DNA from: Lentisphaera profundi
Lineage (GTDB): Bacteria; Verrucomicrobiota; Lentisphaeria; Lentisphaerales; Lentisphaeraceae
Direction: 5' to 3'
NCBI RefSeq assembly: GCF_028728065.1
Contig: NZ_CP117812.1
Span: 1,302,001-1,366,000, forward strand
Length of the DNA stretch: 64,000 nt
Positions 55,648 to 61,669 of the stretch are shown here, in pieces; the first letter of the stretch is position 1; each line of letters opens with the position of its first letter. Below the pieces are notes generated by a model. It did no database searches. It worked only from the letters and a program-made list of their open reading frames with translations, and was not told the origin of the DNA. Made by a program: the position numbers and the translations under genes.

Positions 55648-56220
55648 ATGAATGAGAATACACGATTAACTCTGCTAGAAAAAGTCCGCAATCAACACGA
55701 TGAAAAATCGTGGGGTGATTTCGTTGACACATATCGCCCCTTTATTTATTCTGTATGTAGAAAAATGAATGTAGCTCACTATGAAGCAGAAGAGCTAACT
55801 CAGGATATTTTATTGAAACTATGGGGAAAGCTACCTGAATTTCAATATGAAAAAAATGGTCGTTTTAGAGCTTGGTTATGCACTGTAACAGGCAATCAAG
55901 TTAAGAACTTTTTTCGTAGTCATCAGCGCCGCAATGAGCGTGATAAAAAATATTTTGACGAAAGTATTACAGATCCTGAAATAGAAAGTATCACAGAAGA
56001 GAGCTGGAAGAAGTATGCAGTATTGCGAGCGTTAGAGAATATACGTCCTTTATTTTCCGAAAAAGTTTTCGATATCTTTAACTTACTTCAGCAGGGAAAA
56101 ACTCGACCACAAGTGGCTGAATTAATGGATGTAAGCCCCAATCAAGTATCAGTCTACAAAGAGCGCGTTTTACGACGCTTGACTTCAGAAATCAGACGCT
56201 TAGATCAGGAATGGGGTTGA
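55648..56220 (+). CDS. ECF-type RNA polymerase sigma factor
   Basis: 190 residues. Region 2 has WGDFVDTYRPFIYSVCRKMN, EAEELTQDILLKLW and RFRAWLCTVTGNQVKNFFR; region 4 is VLRALENIRPLFSEKVFDIF followed by the helix-turn-helix TRPQVAELMDVSPNQVSVYK. No anti-sigma gene is adjacent. A Ser/Thr kinase gene converges on it 8 bp away, and kinase-linked ECF groups are known in PVC bacteria. It may respond to a signal relayed by that kinase or the MscS-containing operon; this is inference. Confidence 0.88.
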   Translation: MNENTRLTLLEKVRNQHDEKSWGDFVDTYRPFIYSVCRKMNVAHYEAEELTQDILLKLWGKLPEFQYEKNGRFRAWLCTVTGNQVKNFFRSHQRRNERDKKYFDESITDPEIESITEESWKKYAVLRALENIRPLFSEKVFDIFNLLQQGKTRPQVAELMDVSPNQVSVYKERVLRRLTSEIRRLDQEWG

Positions 56221-56228
56221 GTACTCTT

Positions 56229-58073
56229 TTAGTCGATTACCTTTAATGTGAAACCTAATTCCTTTTGTAAGTCGATGAGGCTTTGTTTTTGTGCTGTTTT
56301 TGAATCAATAGTTAGAGTTTTTAAATACTTCAATTCATTTAAGAAATCAAATTTAGAGATTTTACAGTGAGCAATATTTAAAGTCTCTAAAGGCATATTA
56401 TACAAAACATAAAAATGAGTTCTTACAGGTGAATAAGAAAGATCTAAACTCGTGAGTTTCATTTCTCTAGTGGGTTCCCATCTTCTCATTAGCTTATTGT
56501 GGGATAAGTCTAAGTGATGTTTTTCGTCAATTATTTCAAATTTTATATCTACTGAATCAATGGAGTTGTTGAGCATAATCATTTTTTGAATAATGGGTAT
56601 TTGTCCTTCATAATCTTTTATTTGTAAAACCTGTTCGCGAAAAAAACAATGCACTTGATGAAGGTCGATAGTAAATAAAGAATTAATTATTTTTATAGTT
56701 TCCACAGTGTCTAATTTATTTTGGTCCGAGTTCTTTATATCGACAAAATGTTGAGCTATTTCTAAAAGTTTATTATCTTTGTAGACTTCTCCTTTTTGTA
56801 GATATGTAATAGCTTTATTAAATTCTTGCCGGTAAAAATAAATCCGTCCATATGATGTGTAAATAGATTTTAATTGTTTTTTATTGAGTTTATTATGAGG
56901 AATCGAATCAAGTAGTTCTAGTGCGAGTGTACTCGTATGGGAACTAATGAGTTGGTTAGCTTGTCGAATAAAGTAATCAGCCCCCATAGAAGCAATTTTC
57001 ATACGGCTAGACTTTTCAATATCGTAAAGCTCTAGTGCATTCTCGGCTCTATCTCGTTCTGATGCAGTTTGTTTTTCTTTATTTTTAAGTGAATATACAT
57101 AGAAAATAGAGAGTACGGAAATGAGTATTAGACAGAGTAAAGAAGTAAAACTCAGTGCTTTATGTCTGATTAAAAAGAGTGTTATTTGTTTATTAATCGA
57201 AGCTGCTTCAGCTTTGGGTGCAAAGCCAGATAAATAAGCGCGAACATCATTGATTAATTCCGCACAATTATGATAGCGATGTTGATGATTGTGAGCCATC
57301 GCTTTAAGGCATATAGCCTCTAGTCCTAAAGGGGTCTGGTGATTGATTTCACGGGGTGCAGGAGCATCCTGAGTAGGGTTTTTTTGAGTGAGTATTTTAT
57401 AGAGCAGGGCGCCTAAGGAATAAATATCTTGACTAATACTGATCTCATCGCCAGCATGCTGTTCAGGTGACATGAAACCTGATGTTCCCTTACTAATGGG
57501 AGAAGTAAATTGTCCCAATTCTTGCTCGAGTAAGGAATTACTTAGTATTTGTGCTGAGCCCCAGTCTGAAACAAAAACTTCACCAAAGTCACCTAAAAGA
57601 ATATTGTCATCTTTGAGGTCCCTGTGTATAGCACCCTTTGAATGAGCGTAGTCCATCGCCTCGCAAATCTTAAGAAAAATTTCGATCAAAGTAAAAAGGT
57701 TATTCGCGGAGTCCGCAAGTAAATGACTAAGTTTTTTATGGGTGCAGAGCTTCATTGTGAAAAATGGAGTGCCATCTTGGCGATAGCCCAAATTATAGAC
57801 TTGAATAATATTAGGGTGCTGAAGCGAAGCATTTAGCCGTGCTTCTTCGAGAAAACTGCGCACTTGTTCTTTTGTCAAGTTTTCATTTGGCAGAGCGAGG
57901 GCAATAGAGCGCCCGCTACTTAAATCTAGTGCTTTGCGAATTGTTTTACTTGAGCCACAGCCGATATCTTCCATCTCGGTATAGCGATCTTCTGAGCTTT
58001 CATGACCGAGAGCAACATCAAATAAATCCGATGAGGTAGATTCTAGTTGTTTATAAAATTCTTCTGGGTTCAT
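56229..58073 (-). CDS. Membrane Ser/Thr kinase-like protein with TPR/LRR-like tail
   Basis: 614 residues. An N-terminal Hanks-type kinase domain (about 30-290): DIGCGSSKTIRKA P-loop region, HRDLKDDNILLG catalytic loop (about 146), DWG in place of DFG, GTSGFMSPEQHAG. The ATP-anchoring Lys of the VAIK strand is not seen (SIALALP), so activity is uncertain. One membrane helix (about 305-325) follows, then helical repeats (about 340-470) and leucine-rich-like repeats (LTSLDLSYS, LETLNIAHC, LKTLTID). Kinase inside, sensor-like tail outside is the usual topology. It is the third gene of an ATPase/MscS operon, 7 bp after MscS. Confidence 0.85.
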   Translation of the reverse strand: MNPEEFYKQLESTSSDLFDVALGHESSEDRYTEMEDIGCGSSKTIRKALDLSSGRSIALALPNENLTKEQVRSFLEEARLNASLQHPNIIQVYNLGYRQDGTPFFTMKLCTHKKLSHLLADSANNLFTLIEIFLKICEAMDYAHSKGAIHRDLKDDNILLGDFGEVFVSDWGSAQILSNSLLEQELGQFTSPISKGTSGFMSPEQHAGDEISISQDIYSLGALLYKILTQKNPTQDAPAPREINHQTPLGLEAICLKAMAHNHQHRYHNCAELINDVRAYLSGFAPKAEAASINKQITLFLIRHKALSFTSLLCLILISVLSIFYVYSLKNKEKQTASERDRAENALELYDIEKSSRMKIASMGADYFIRQANQLISSHTSTLALELLDSIPHNKLNKKQLKSIYTSYGRIYFYRQEFNKAITYLQKGEVYKDNKLLEIAQHFVDIKNSDQNKLDTVETIKIINSLFTIDLHQVHCFFREQVLQIKDYEGQIPIIQKMIMLNNSIDSVDIKFEIIDEKHHLDLSHNKLMRRWEPTREMKLTSLDLSYSPVRTHFYVLYNMPLETLNIAHCKISKFDFLNELKYLKTLTIDSKTAQKQSLIDLQKELGFTLKVID

Positions 58074-58080
58074 TTTGACT

Positions 58081-59166
58081 TTATTGGTTTCGGTGAAGAA
58101 TAGAAGGAGGCTGAATCTGCTGATCTTTGAAGGCTTTCATTATTCGTAAATTGAGATCGGTTTCAAATGCAGCTTCATATTGAGTATCCAAAACGTAAGC
58201 TTTGACGCGAACTCGGTAAGCCATATAACTCTCTATAATTACTTGTTTAACCAAGACGACTATAGGTTTTGGCAAGCATACATAATGACTACTAGAGGTC
58301 GCTTCATTAGCAATATTACATGCCGTTTCAATATCCTGATCTAGACCAATGTAAAAGTCGATAGTCATTTGCATGGATAGCTCACCATAGTTCCCGCAGA
58401 CGGTGACATCACTAAGGAATTTATTATTTGGAATCGTCACGGTATCATCAGTTAAAGTTTGCATACGTACAGAACGTAAACCGATGGCGGTTATATCACC
58501 ATACTGACCATCGAAAGTTATACGGTCACCGACCTGGAAGGGGCGATCAACCATGATCATTAAGCCCGCGATAAATGACGCTATTAAATCTTTTATAGCA
58601 AAGCCAAATGAAACCGCTAAAGTACCTCCAATAATGCTTAATAACTGCTCATTAATTCTGAAGCTTAGTAAAAACACAGTAATGGCGACGCCAACGTAAA
58701 TAAAGAACTGTGCAATTGTTTCGATTTTATGAAAGAGCATTCGTTTTTGAGGTATTTGGAGACTGAAGCGTTCAACTAATCGATGCATTAAGCGAAGAAT
58801 CATAATCGTCAAAATAATTAGCGTTAAAGAAAAAATAACTCCACTGATTCTCACAAAGCGGGTAACTTTACTTAAGCTCAATTCACTGGCTTCATCAGCG
58901 CTGGCGGCTATCGTTTTCTTGATTATTTCTGAAGATTCATTTAATGCTTTTATTGGTTGAGAAGACTCAGAGTCAAGATCTGAATCTTTGATCTCCTTAT
59001 TTTCAATACTTGAGGTTGTGGATGATGACTTTACTTGATCTTTTTTTAGTTCTGAAGAAGCTTCTTCAGCTTGAGAAAAACCATCCTTTTGAACGGGTAC
59101 TTGAGCTTTAAGATCAGAAAGAGAAAAAAAGAGAAAAATAGTGCTGAGAAATAAAATATATCGCAT
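58081..59166 (-). CDS. MscS-family mechanosensitive channel
   Basis: 361 residues. A signal peptide (about 1-22) and an acidic Ser-rich stretch precede three membrane segments, ending in the pore helix LLSIIGGTLAVSFGFAIKDLIASF. The conserved MscS domain follows: IAGLMIMVDRPFQVGDRITFDGQYGDI and LTDDTVTIPNNKFL, then the cytoplasmic cage. It releases osmolytes on membrane tension. It lies between an ATPase-containing membrane protein (5 bp gap) and a kinase-like protein (7 bp gap), an unusual operon partner set. Confidence 0.9.
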   Translation of the reverse strand: MRYILFLSTIFLFFSLSDLKAQVPVQKDGFSQAEEASSELKKDQVKSSSTTSSIENKEIKDSDLDSESSQPIKALNESSEIIKKTIAASADEASELSLSKVTRFVRISGVIFSLTLIILTIMILRLMHRLVERFSLQIPQKRMLFHKIETIAQFFIYVGVAITVFLLSFRINEQLLSIIGGTLAVSFGFAIKDLIASFIAGLMIMVDRPFQVGDRITFDGQYGDITAIGLRSVRMQTLTDDTVTIPNNKFLSDVTVCGNYGELSMQMTIDFYIGLDQDIETACNIANEATSSSHYVCLPKPIVVLVKQVIIESYMAYRVRVKAYVLDTQYEAAFETDLNLRIMKAFKDQQIQPPSILHRNQ

Positions 59167-59171
59167 AATGA

Positions 59172-61583
59172 TTATTTAGATAAAAGGTGTTGACGTTGAA
59201 GGATGGTGATAATGGGTCTGAACCAACGAATTGAAATGTGATAAAATTCATTGTGTTCTTCGATAAAACCATGAAACAGTAAAAGGTGAATACAGTCATC
59301 GACGAGAGATTTTTTTTCTGCAGATGAGAGCCTTAGATCTTCTTTATTAGTAGAGCCCATTTGAACAATACTGCGTAACACAAAGTAAGTTAAGGCTGGC
59401 ATGGATTCTAGCTCAGCCAAAGAAGGCGGATTAAATAAGCGAACTTCTATTTTGTCGGAGTTTTTTTGCTTGTATAGTGATAAGTTAAAACAATAAAGCG
59501 CAACACTAGGGTTACCCTCAGAGTAATCATTAAGTATACGATAGTAACTGAGGTCCTTTTTTCTACGGCCGTCAATCTGTGGACCATCAAGATGACGTGG
59601 AATAACTAAGCCTTGAAAAGAGATGCTATGACCTTGCTCCTTAATCCTGGATGAAATCATTGTTTTTAATTGATGTATTTCCCACTTAGGAAGCTTTGTA
59701 ACTGATTCAAAAAGTATTTTTTTAGCTCGGACTCTTTTTAAAAACTGCCAGGCTTCACTGTCAATAGAGACAATCCACCTAATAGATTCTTGTTCTTTTC
59801 TAATTAATTTGATAAAATCATCGATGACTTCTATGCCGCCAATCTGAGCTTTTTGCACTAAATGGATGTCATCAATGAAAATCACTGCTTTTTGGATCTT
59901 ATTTTCTTTAGATTCTTTGATGAAGCTCTTCATGTTATCAATAAAATCATTGTTATTGGATCTGGTGCATGAGTAGAATTTTGATTGATAACCTTCGTTC
60001 AATTTTTTTTGTAAACGTTGCAGAAAAATAGTTTTTCCTAAGCCGCGTTCACCGCAAATTAGGTTCAAGCCCGTAGGGATTTCCTTTTCGCTAAATTGTT
60101 TCAGTTCATCTAAAGCATATTCTTCAATAATAGAAGAATGATTTGTGGAGCTATACATTTGATGGTCGATGAGGGTTAGCCCTTTTTCCTCTTCCATAAC
60201 AGTCGTTTTTAAAGAAAGAAAAGAAGCCATCATTGGACGAAATATACTGATACTGGAAACGAGAATCAATAGCCACTGGAAGGATCCCTTGATAAAGAAG
60301 TAAATAACCCCGATTGCTACTGTTAGCTCAGTATTTATTTTTCCTTGGCTTCTTGCTTTGAGTTTTTTAATAAAAAAGGTTTCATCCTGAATATCATCAA
60401 GCATTTTAAGAATACTGAGTTTCCATGCACGTAAAACAAAATAGAAGGCGGCTACTAAGAGGCTTACCAAAAACCAATAAAGCCATGATTGAATCACCCA
60501 ACAACCAGTCAATGAATTCTCCGCAAGTCTTTTGATAATCAGCGTAAAGGCTATATAAAAAGCAAATATACGTAAAGTTTTCTCTCTTAATTCGGGATGA
60601 TCTTCTTGATTAAAAACATAGTTCCTTCTATATGCCATCGCGTGACAGACTTGCACTGCTAAACGTGTGAATACATAGACGTAAAATATATTGATGTACA
60701 TTTTTATGTCAGGGTAGGTGAAGACCGTATATATCGGAGATGATATGACATATACCATTAGGATTCGTTTAATCGCTGGACTCAATCTATTTGAGTACCA
60801 TAATAAAGCAGATGGATGTTTTTGTTCTTTATTTCCAATCCATTTCAACCATGATTTTAATAGATAAATTAAAAAAAGTGATTTTAAAATGGCTCCAATG
60901 AGAGGCAATGGAGAAGTTGTTAAGTCTGTAATAGATTTTTTGAAACGCTTTTTTAAAGTGAGGTAATAAAACTTTAGTTCGAGAGCCAGTTCATTTAATT
61001 CACTACGTAATTTTAGAATTGAATAAGCATTAAAATTGTTTAGTGAATGGATATTGATTTTCTTAGTTTCCTGGAAGCAGTAATCACGTGAGGATTGAGC
61101 TTGATTGAGTGCAACCACTAAACTATGAAAGACCTCTTGGTATTTTATAGCTGTCTCATCAAAGTTCTGATTGAGCTCTTTAGCTTGTTTGCGCTCATCT
61201 TGATAGGATGAATGGACTTGTTTTGATAGTTTTAAGATTTGTACAATGGCATCTTCAATTTTAGGTAGAGTTTGTTCCGCCACTTCTAAGGAGGCATTAT
61301 TGAGTAATTGTAGTTTTTTAAGTGCTGAAATCTGAGCTTCTAGCTCAAAAGTTAAAACCTTTAATTGTTTAGATTGAGAATGAAAAATCTCCAGCTTCGT
61401 TATTTTTGGTGTAGGTTCTTTTTTTTCTATAGATGTATCAATTTCATTCTCGTCTGAAGTGACTTCATCAGGATTTACATTCTCCACTATATTATTAGTG
61501 GGCGCATCCGATGAGGGATTGAGCTCTTGGCTTAAAGGTGAGAATGTTATAAAAAAAAGAATAAAACTAAACAGTACTTTCAC
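59172..61583 (-). CDS. Large membrane protein with coiled coil and C-terminal P-loop ATPase
   Basis: 803 residues starting with GTG at 61583 after AGGAG. A signal peptide is followed by a long coiled-coil region (about 50-200), several membrane segments (about 215-460; e.g. LIGAILKSLFLIYLL, WLYWFLVSLLVAAFYFVL) and a C-terminal AAA-like domain (about 490-800). Walker A is CGERGLGKTIFLQ (about 510) and Walker B is KAVIFIDDIHLV (about 563). A winged-helix-like tail follows (ADDCIHLLLFHGFIEE-like segment). It resembles NTPases of the STAND/KAP type, but membrane anchoring with an N-terminal coiled coil is unusual. It is first in an operon with MscS and a kinase-like gene. Confidence 0.75.
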   Translation of the reverse strand: MKVLFSFILFFITFSPLSQELNPSSDAPTNNIVENVNPDEVTSDENEIDTSIEKKEPTPKITKLEIFHSQSKQLKVLTFELEAQISALKKLQLLNNASLEVAEQTLPKIEDAIVQILKLSKQVHSSYQDERKQAKELNQNFDETAIKYQEVFHSLVVALNQAQSSRDYCFQETKKINIHSLNNFNAYSILKLRSELNELALELKFYYLTLKKRFKKSITDLTTSPLPLIGAILKSLFLIYLLKSWLKWIGNKEQKHPSALLWYSNRLSPAIKRILMVYVISSPIYTVFTYPDIKMYINIFYVYVFTRLAVQVCHAMAYRRNYVFNQEDHPELREKTLRIFAFYIAFTLIIKRLAENSLTGCWVIQSWLYWFLVSLLVAAFYFVLRAWKLSILKMLDDIQDETFFIKKLKARSQGKINTELTVAIGVIYFFIKGSFQWLLILVSSISIFRPMMASFLSLKTTVMEEEKGLTLIDHQMYSSTNHSSIIEEYALDELKQFSEKEIPTGLNLICGERGLGKTIFLQRLQKKLNEGYQSKFYSCTRSNNNDFIDNMKSFIKESKENKIQKAVIFIDDIHLVQKAQIGGIEVIDDFIKLIRKEQESIRWIVSIDSEAWQFLKRVRAKKILFESVTKLPKWEIHQLKTMISSRIKEQGHSISFQGLVIPRHLDGPQIDGRRKKDLSYYRILNDYSEGNPSVALYCFNLSLYKQKNSDKIEVRLFNPPSLAELESMPALTYFVLRSIVQMGSTNKEDLRLSSAEKKSLVDDCIHLLLFHGFIEEHNEFYHISIRWFRPIITILQRQHLLSK

Positions 61584-61669
61584 GTCAGCTCCTATCAGGC
61601 TGTTTAAAATATATATAATAAATTAGTGTTAGATTTAAAGACTCACTTAAGTGAAACTCGATTGTTACG

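Follow-up and report, generated by a model that had tools for sequence, protein, structure and literature searches.

What joins a membrane ATPase, a mechanosensitive channel, a protein kinase and a sigma factor at one locus, and does the first of them control the second? The question is raised by a region of the marine bacterium Lentisphaera profundi (contig 2 of a 5.46 Mb genome) within a stretch of 64,000 nucleotides, positions 1,302,001 to 1,366,000 of NZ_CP117812.1, which we call the window. Three minus-strand genes at 56229–61583 encode a membrane protein with a P-loop ATPase domain, a channel of the MscS type and a Hanks-type kinase, with intergenic gaps of 5 bp and then 7 bp; the plus-strand gene of an extracytoplasmic function (ECF) sigma factor lies tail to tail with the kinase gene, with 8 bp between their ends (Table 1). 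This is the layout given in a preliminary description made from the letters alone, which the coordinates and strands bear out exactly, both for the three closely spaced genes and for the convergent sigma gene, and searches of Pfam and NCBIfam back the family assignment of all four genes. Our strongest claim, shown by sequence comparison, is that one subfamily of MscS channels is paired with one family of membrane ATPases in two bacterial phyla, and the simplest reading of this pairing is that the ATPase is a partner of the channel. The fuller interpretation, in which the two genes form a cassette whose P-loop ATPase controls the channel while the kinase-ECF pair reports its state, could in our judgement equally well prove right or wrong.

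The evidence for the pairing comes from plasmids. A tblastn search with the ATPase matched three out of 72,556 plasmid records, those of Caulobacter sp. NIBR2454 (25% identity over residues 325–803) and of Novosphingobium US6-1 and PP1Y (28% over residues 502–800). In all three, the gene directly downstream of the ATPase homolog encodes an MscS protein of the window subfamily, and the junctions are tight: a 4 bp overlap in Caulobacter, a gap of 2 bp in US6-1 and, by coordinates, a position 2 bp past the ATPase stop in PP1Y. Searching with the channel leads to the same place, as the window MscS matches 252 plasmid records whose top three are these ATPase carriers (47–51% identity), with the other 37 of the best 40 records at 35% identity or less. 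Four further plasmid MscS loci picked from the hit lists as controls (Azospirillum, Chroococcidiopsis, Hymenobacter and Haladaptatus) contain no match to the ATPase profile at E ≤1, and neither do 27 non-Lentisphaera loci among the 30 MscS loci taken from the phylum of the window genome show the ATPase (best E 0.28; these loci are short, a few kb each). The search for conserved ATPase-MscS neighbourhoods proposed in the preliminary description therefore finds the pair again in another phylum. Two arrangements were observed in passing: on the Caulobacter plasmid the first MscS gene is followed, after 14 bp, by another and different one (L016:10360-11298), and in Hymenobacter monticola an MscS-domain gene without the ATPase has a sigma-70 family gene 20 bp downstream in the same orientation (L031:3054-6154).

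Within the genus the whole set of four genes is kept. The preliminary description would have counted it against its own reading if the set occurred in no other genome; it is found in identical order and orientation in all three Lentisphaera genomes, that of the window included. The channel gene, separated from the ATPase gene by 5 bp in the window, overlaps it in the two relatives by 4 bp and 55 bp (ORF-tool start, ORF standing for open reading frame); the distances from the channel gene to the kinase gene are 7, 1 and 1 bp; and the ends of the sigma and kinase genes, with 8 bp between them in the window, share 4 bp in one relative and 16 bp in the other. A gene named threonine-dehydratase-like by reading its sequence precedes the 86 bp gap 5' of the window ATPase gene, and stands 86–87 bp ahead of the ATPase gene in all three genomes. 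The orthologs are 54–56% identical to the window protein for the ATPase, 74–78% for the channel, 64–66% for the kinase and 88% for the sigma factor, so gene order has been kept while the ATPase diverged strongly. The arrangement is not a product of chance, because three genomes of the genus keep the four-gene order and a second phylum also shows the ATPase gene ahead of the MscS gene. A foreign origin inferred from base composition was considered and rejected, as the G+C content of the region (0.35–0.36) lies inside the spread of samples from the window (0.32–0.44). Consensus promoters and terminators matched the locus no better than they matched shuffled sequence. In alignments of the upstream regions, judged by eye, the ribosome-binding site is conserved and an ECF promoter is not clearly visible.

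In a wider search, the ATPase was found in three of 59 genomes (its own included), all of Lentisphaera. Profile searches were extended to 387 genomes of the phylum, with the best few candidates per genome scored. The profile of the MscS subfamily reached 475–479 bits in the three Lentisphaera genomes and did not exceed 139 bits in any other, and the ATPase core profile matched 86 genomes, in all but three of them partially and with no more than 27 bits. Weak AAA matches in two of these genomes (G276 and G155) were set aside, since on reading they look like another type of ATPase; no MscS gene was seen in their short loci.

The preliminary description had recognized a P-loop ATPase in the membrane protein, and domain prediction agrees: the matches to PF13173 (28.9 bits, cut-off 27) and PF00004 (25.1 bits, cut-off 21.2) exceed the cut-offs, while the NACHT/STAND models PF05729 (16.8 versus 26.7) and PF25199 (16 versus 34) stay below them. 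The Walker A motif GERGLGKT occupies residues 511–518 and is present in all five membrane-type ATPases read (PP1Y left out). Together with an acidic stretch resembling Walker B, the conserved motif GNP and a helical C-terminus, it relates the protein to the AAA/STAND-type P-loop ATPases, from which the Lentisphaera ATPase differs by its N-terminal membrane region and its genetic pairing with an MscS channel. Hydrophobic segments were identified at residues 221–239, 366–384 and 424–442, and the relatives have more of them. We infer that the hydrophobic N-terminus is a signal peptide, that the helical region at residues ~62–220 forms an extracytoplasmic coiled coil, and that the helical C-terminal end is a winged helix. 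A low-confidence structure model, used for its secondary structure only, has long helices at the putative coiled coil.

The channel scores 64.2 bits with the MscS beta domain (PF00924, cut-off 20.2) and 20.4 bits with the MscS C-terminal domain (PF21082, cut-off 21), and it matches the NCBIfam models of MscS and MscK at their channel end, under the curated cut-offs. In the usual view, channels of the MscS family need no partner in order to open to membrane tension. MscK (KefA) combines a signal peptide, an extracytoplasmic helical domain and extra transmembrane helices with its channel, features that the Lentisphaera ATPase and MscS proteins would jointly have. The Lentisphaera channel shares the MscS beta domain with MscS and MscK, but here the helical domain and the channel are encoded by separate genes and a P-loop ATPase is added. 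We also considered that the pair might be an MscK split into two genes; no MscK profile matches the ATPase within the limits applied (E 1 for Pfam, 0.1 for NCBIfam), so that MscK serves as an analogy only.

Possible relatives of the ATPase were found beside more distant channels. The fourth-ranked plasmid MscS belongs to the haloarchaeon Salinirubellus, and its gene overlaps by 4 bp an upstream gene for a hypothetical protein of 331 aa (L027:4880-5875); in Halomonas PA16-9 a frameshifted ORF lies upstream of the MscS gene (L028:3744-4921). In hhalign, a profile of five membrane ATPases aligned over 243 columns at 91.8% with the Salinirubellus protein, and a profile containing the latter protein as well aligned over 221 columns at 91.7% with the C-terminal frame of the Halomonas ORF. 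When the five-ATPase profile was run with hmmsearch against 641 ORFs of nine loci, Halomonas (E 0.0018) and Salinirubellus (E 0.0056) came next after the three membrane ATPases, and in an hhalign control with 151 ORFs of at least 200 aa Salinirubellus took rank four (88.7%, 243 columns), with Halomonas at rank seven (68.7%, 191 columns). These similarities are suggestive of shorter, soluble, degenerate relatives of the ATPase next to more distant MscS genes. Carriers whose source is recorded or implied by the organism come from marine or saline settings (Ulsan Bay mud, flounder, a haloarchaeon, Lentisphaera marina), with no source given in the PP1Y and Halomonas records; this fits osmotic control but constitutes no test of it.

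Several observations weigh against the ATPase as the partner of the channel, and they start with these two proteins. Single-sequence BLAST links no ATPase to the Salinirubellus protein (E 0.85). An unrelated generic AAA ATPase follows close behind in hmmsearch (E 0.013), and hhalign places the same AAA ATPase (85.5%, 89 columns) and another ORF (54.3%, 21 columns) between the two candidates, so only the length of the alignment and the position of the gene set the Salinirubellus and Halomonas ORFs apart from an unrelated AAA ATPase. The channels encoded beside them share 30% and 23% identity with the window MscS, which brings them no closer than some controls. Neither protein, as read, has an intact Walker A lysine, and therefore ATP hydrolysis cannot be essential in all members. 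The structure models of two proteins are poor (mean predicted local distance difference test scores 42.2 and 39.9) and lend no support. The pair is also rare in the data searched: the ATPase query retrieved three plasmid records, full-length relatives of the ATPase occur in three genomes of the 387-genome phylum sample, all of them Lentisphaera, no viral contig encodes a relative, and none of 50,697 phage records matches the Caulobacter homolog. Finally, the annotation of the Caulobacter, US6-1 and Salinirubellus stretches lists neither a Ser/Thr kinase nor a sigma gene, and the kinase-sigma link is therefore genus-specific here.

How, then, does the kinase-sigma half relate to the channel? 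The sigma factor is well supported (PF04542 64.6 bits, cut-off 24; TIGR02937 88.1 bits, cut-off 42.9). Pairs in which a sigma gene adjoins a kinase gene are familiar from ECF43 (EcfP-PknT, EcfK-PknS), ECF59, 61, 62 and 217. ECF43 factors have no DAED motif and acquire the charge through phosphorylation (PMC8999054). The Lentisphaera sigma factor, unlike these, keeps an acidic motif (EAEE) in region 2.2, in all three orthologs, its gene is convergent with the kinase gene, and the kinase lacks the beta-3 lysine. If the kinase controls the sigma factor, it probably acts by a different route, or on a different site, than in ECF43.

The pair is one of many. The genome has 86 matches to sigma region 2, and for 52 of these sigma genes a kinase gene is found no more than 3 kb away, compared with a mean of 10.6 and a maximum of 21 in 500 random trials; 11 of the 52 pairs are convergent, that of the window included. 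Since kinase-ECF neighbours are this common, a sigma gene facing the operon is nothing special to mechanosensing. The sigma factors of the ten other convergent loci are mostly acidic in region 2.2 as well, and by reading, a pseudopilin-like gene (with a FTLIE...VV start) was noticed near eight of these ten pairs and a sulfatase-like gene near three (L202-L208, L210). There is a hint of one regulator pair per gene cluster. As far as sequences tell, the kinase-sigma half is one of an extensive series of paralogs and a genus-level addition to the ATPase-MscS pair.

It could accordingly be asked whether two independent units merely lie side by side, a channel with its ATPase partner and one of many ECF-kinase pairs, functionally unlinked. 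The excess of sigma genes near kinases far above random is in favour of this explanation, as are the different genes at the ten other convergent pairs and the lack of a Ser/Thr kinase in the three non-Lentisphaera ATPase-MscS stretches with gene tables. The spacing speaks against it: the channel and kinase genes have kept distances of 7, 1 and 1 bp in three species, even though the ATPases of these species have come to differ at almost half of their positions, and such tight coupling to an upstream gene is found in just one of the ten other convergent kinases (L209, 3 bp from an upstream same-strand ORF of at least 120 aa). We consider the two units rather unlikely to be unlinked.

The kinase itself is unusual. 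Its match to PF00069 (117.8 bits, cut-off 31.7) lies well above the cut-off, with the HRD motif (H150, R151, D152) and the metal-binding D170 present, and it has one hydrophobic segment (residues 300–318). The kinase-like protein of the preliminary description is thus a kinase by family, while the leucine-rich-repeat-like tail also described there has weak support, PF13516, PF12799 and PF00560 all scoring under the cut-off. In all three orthologs the beta-3 lysine is replaced by alanine (A60), and in the glycine-rich loop of the window kinase K43 takes the place of the third glycine. Both positions are fixed by aligning the protein with PAK3, which needs no gap.

The same exchange is frequent in the genome, which has 105 kinase matches. 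We read 71 of these kinases, in a sample that is biased, as the sigma-paired ones were fetched deliberately, the unpaired ones were mainly those with top Pkinase scores, and 34 of the 105 were not included. The beta-3 lysine is absent and a glycine-rich-loop lysine present in 45 of the 71. Among 73 distinct rows (the 71 and two orthologs), 47 lack the beta-3 lysine and all 47 have a lysine at position 43, whereas 26 keep the beta-3 lysine and none of the 26 has the loop lysine. All 47 swapped rows keep the HxD aspartate, the lysine and asparagine of the catalytic loop, the alpha-C glutamate and the DWG aspartate. HLD replaces HRD in nearly all of the 45 swapped kinases; the window kinase retains HRD. 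If a sigma-paired kinase is defined as the one nearest to a sigma gene, within 3 kb, then the swap is present in 42 of the 44 such kinases that were read (out of 51 in total), as opposed to three of the 27 other kinases read. In 40 chosen genomes of the phylum, 29 have a match at E ≤1e-40, and 10 of the 30 best loci read, from nine genomes, are of the swapped type. Three kinases from related genomes (L149, L150 and L151) combine HLDLKP with a normal beta-3 lysine and are possible pre-swap intermediates.

The precedent for such a relocation is the WNK family of eukaryotes, which likewise has lost the beta-3 lysine and has one in the glycine-rich loop instead, where the third glycine would be (PMC1821047). 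The window kinase differs from WNK kinases in that bacterial PknB (E 1.4e-29) resembles it more closely in sequence than WNK1 does (E 2e-15), and a query made up of the loop segment only retrieves PAK and CDK4 and not WNK. For these reasons it is likelier, on the basis of sequence similarity, that the lysine swap is convergent with that of WNK than inherited in common. A known trait of WNK kinases is chloride sensing in the active site.

The loss of the beta-3 lysine could alternatively be taken to mean that the protein is a pseudokinase, a scaffold without a phosphorylation step, which would be compatible with either view of the channel. The alanine in all three orthologs would agree with this, and a review from 2025 takes the loss of that lysine as evidence of a pseudokinase where activity is untested (PMC12599244). 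But a lysine at position 43 accompanies the loss in every one of the 47 rows, the other catalytic residues are kept, and WNK kinases depend on a lysine relocated in this way for their catalysis, as Kannan et al. 2007 describe (PMC1821047). A pseudokinase is consequently improbable here.

A role in anti-phage defence or abortive infection, with the ATPase sensing infection and the MscS protein as a membrane-damaging effector, appears very improbable, since the patchy distribution, the location of the Caulobacter plasmid copy near another AAA-family ATPase and a DEAD/DEAH helicase, and a PADLOC match over the Walker A region (PDC-M49A, E 2.2e-6) have to be set against the same threonine-dehydratase-like neighbour in all three Lentisphaera genomes, the restriction of the PADLOC match to residues 486–558 and its absence from the Caulobacter and US6-1 ATPases, and the failure of the Caulobacter protein to match any phage record. 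An origin of the genes in phages or other viruses was rejected on account of the same phage search and of the viral contigs.

Returning to the ATPase as the partner of the channel, we can outline how the system would work. The membrane-anchored ATPase, with its helical domain outside, would dock on the MscS channel, and the binding or hydrolysis of ATP would set channel opening, in which case the release of ions or osmolytes would depend on a sensed signal or on the energy state besides tension. In Lentisphaera the cassette is probably co-transcribed with the kinase of the ECF-associated, lysine-swapped family, which may sense the state of the membrane complex and control the convergent ECF sigma factor, so that the state of the channel would be reported to transcription. 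The preliminary description had called conceivable a mechanosensing system that would couple membrane tension, an ATP switch and transcription. This is partly supported: the ATPase and the channel as one system are well supported, and a link to transcription is suggested by the position of the genes. A more far-reaching proposal, which we regard as doubtful, is that a class of MscS channels extending from bacteria to archaea operates under a dedicated partner ATPase and that in Lentisphaera it is wired through a large kinase family, which arrived at the WNK lysine swap anew, to an ECF sigma factor, in parallel to the osmotic pathway of WNK kinases.

Table 1. Features of the ATPase-MscS-kinase-sigma locus, with positions counted from the first nucleotide of the window.
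Feature	Position	Strand	Remarks
Membrane ATPase	59172-61583	-	803 aa; GTG start preceded by AGGAG box
MscS-type channel, distinct subfamily	58081-59166	-	361 aa
Hanks-type kinase	56229-58073	-	614 aa; A60 at beta-3, K43 in glycine-rich loop
ECF-type sigma factor	55648-56220	+	190 aa; convergent with kinase gene; region 2.2 EAEE
ATPase upstream gap	61584-61669	-	86 bp; conserved AGGAG ribosome-binding site; candidate promoter

We recognized no description of the ATPase-MscS pair, or of WNK-like kinases in Lentisphaera, among the titles and abstract openings of the open-licence literature. Two things seem worth following, the ATPase-MscS pair and the family of lysine-swapped kinases, most of which lie beside sigma genes. 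The pair may represent an undescribed way of controlling an MscS-type channel and, if this is true, some MscS channels would be switched by ATP-dependent signalling. As for the kinases, the 2007 study states that WNKs are the sole functional family of eukaryotic protein kinases without the beta-3 lysine (PMC1821047); if the lysine-swapped bacterial kinases prove active, that statement would need to be revised.

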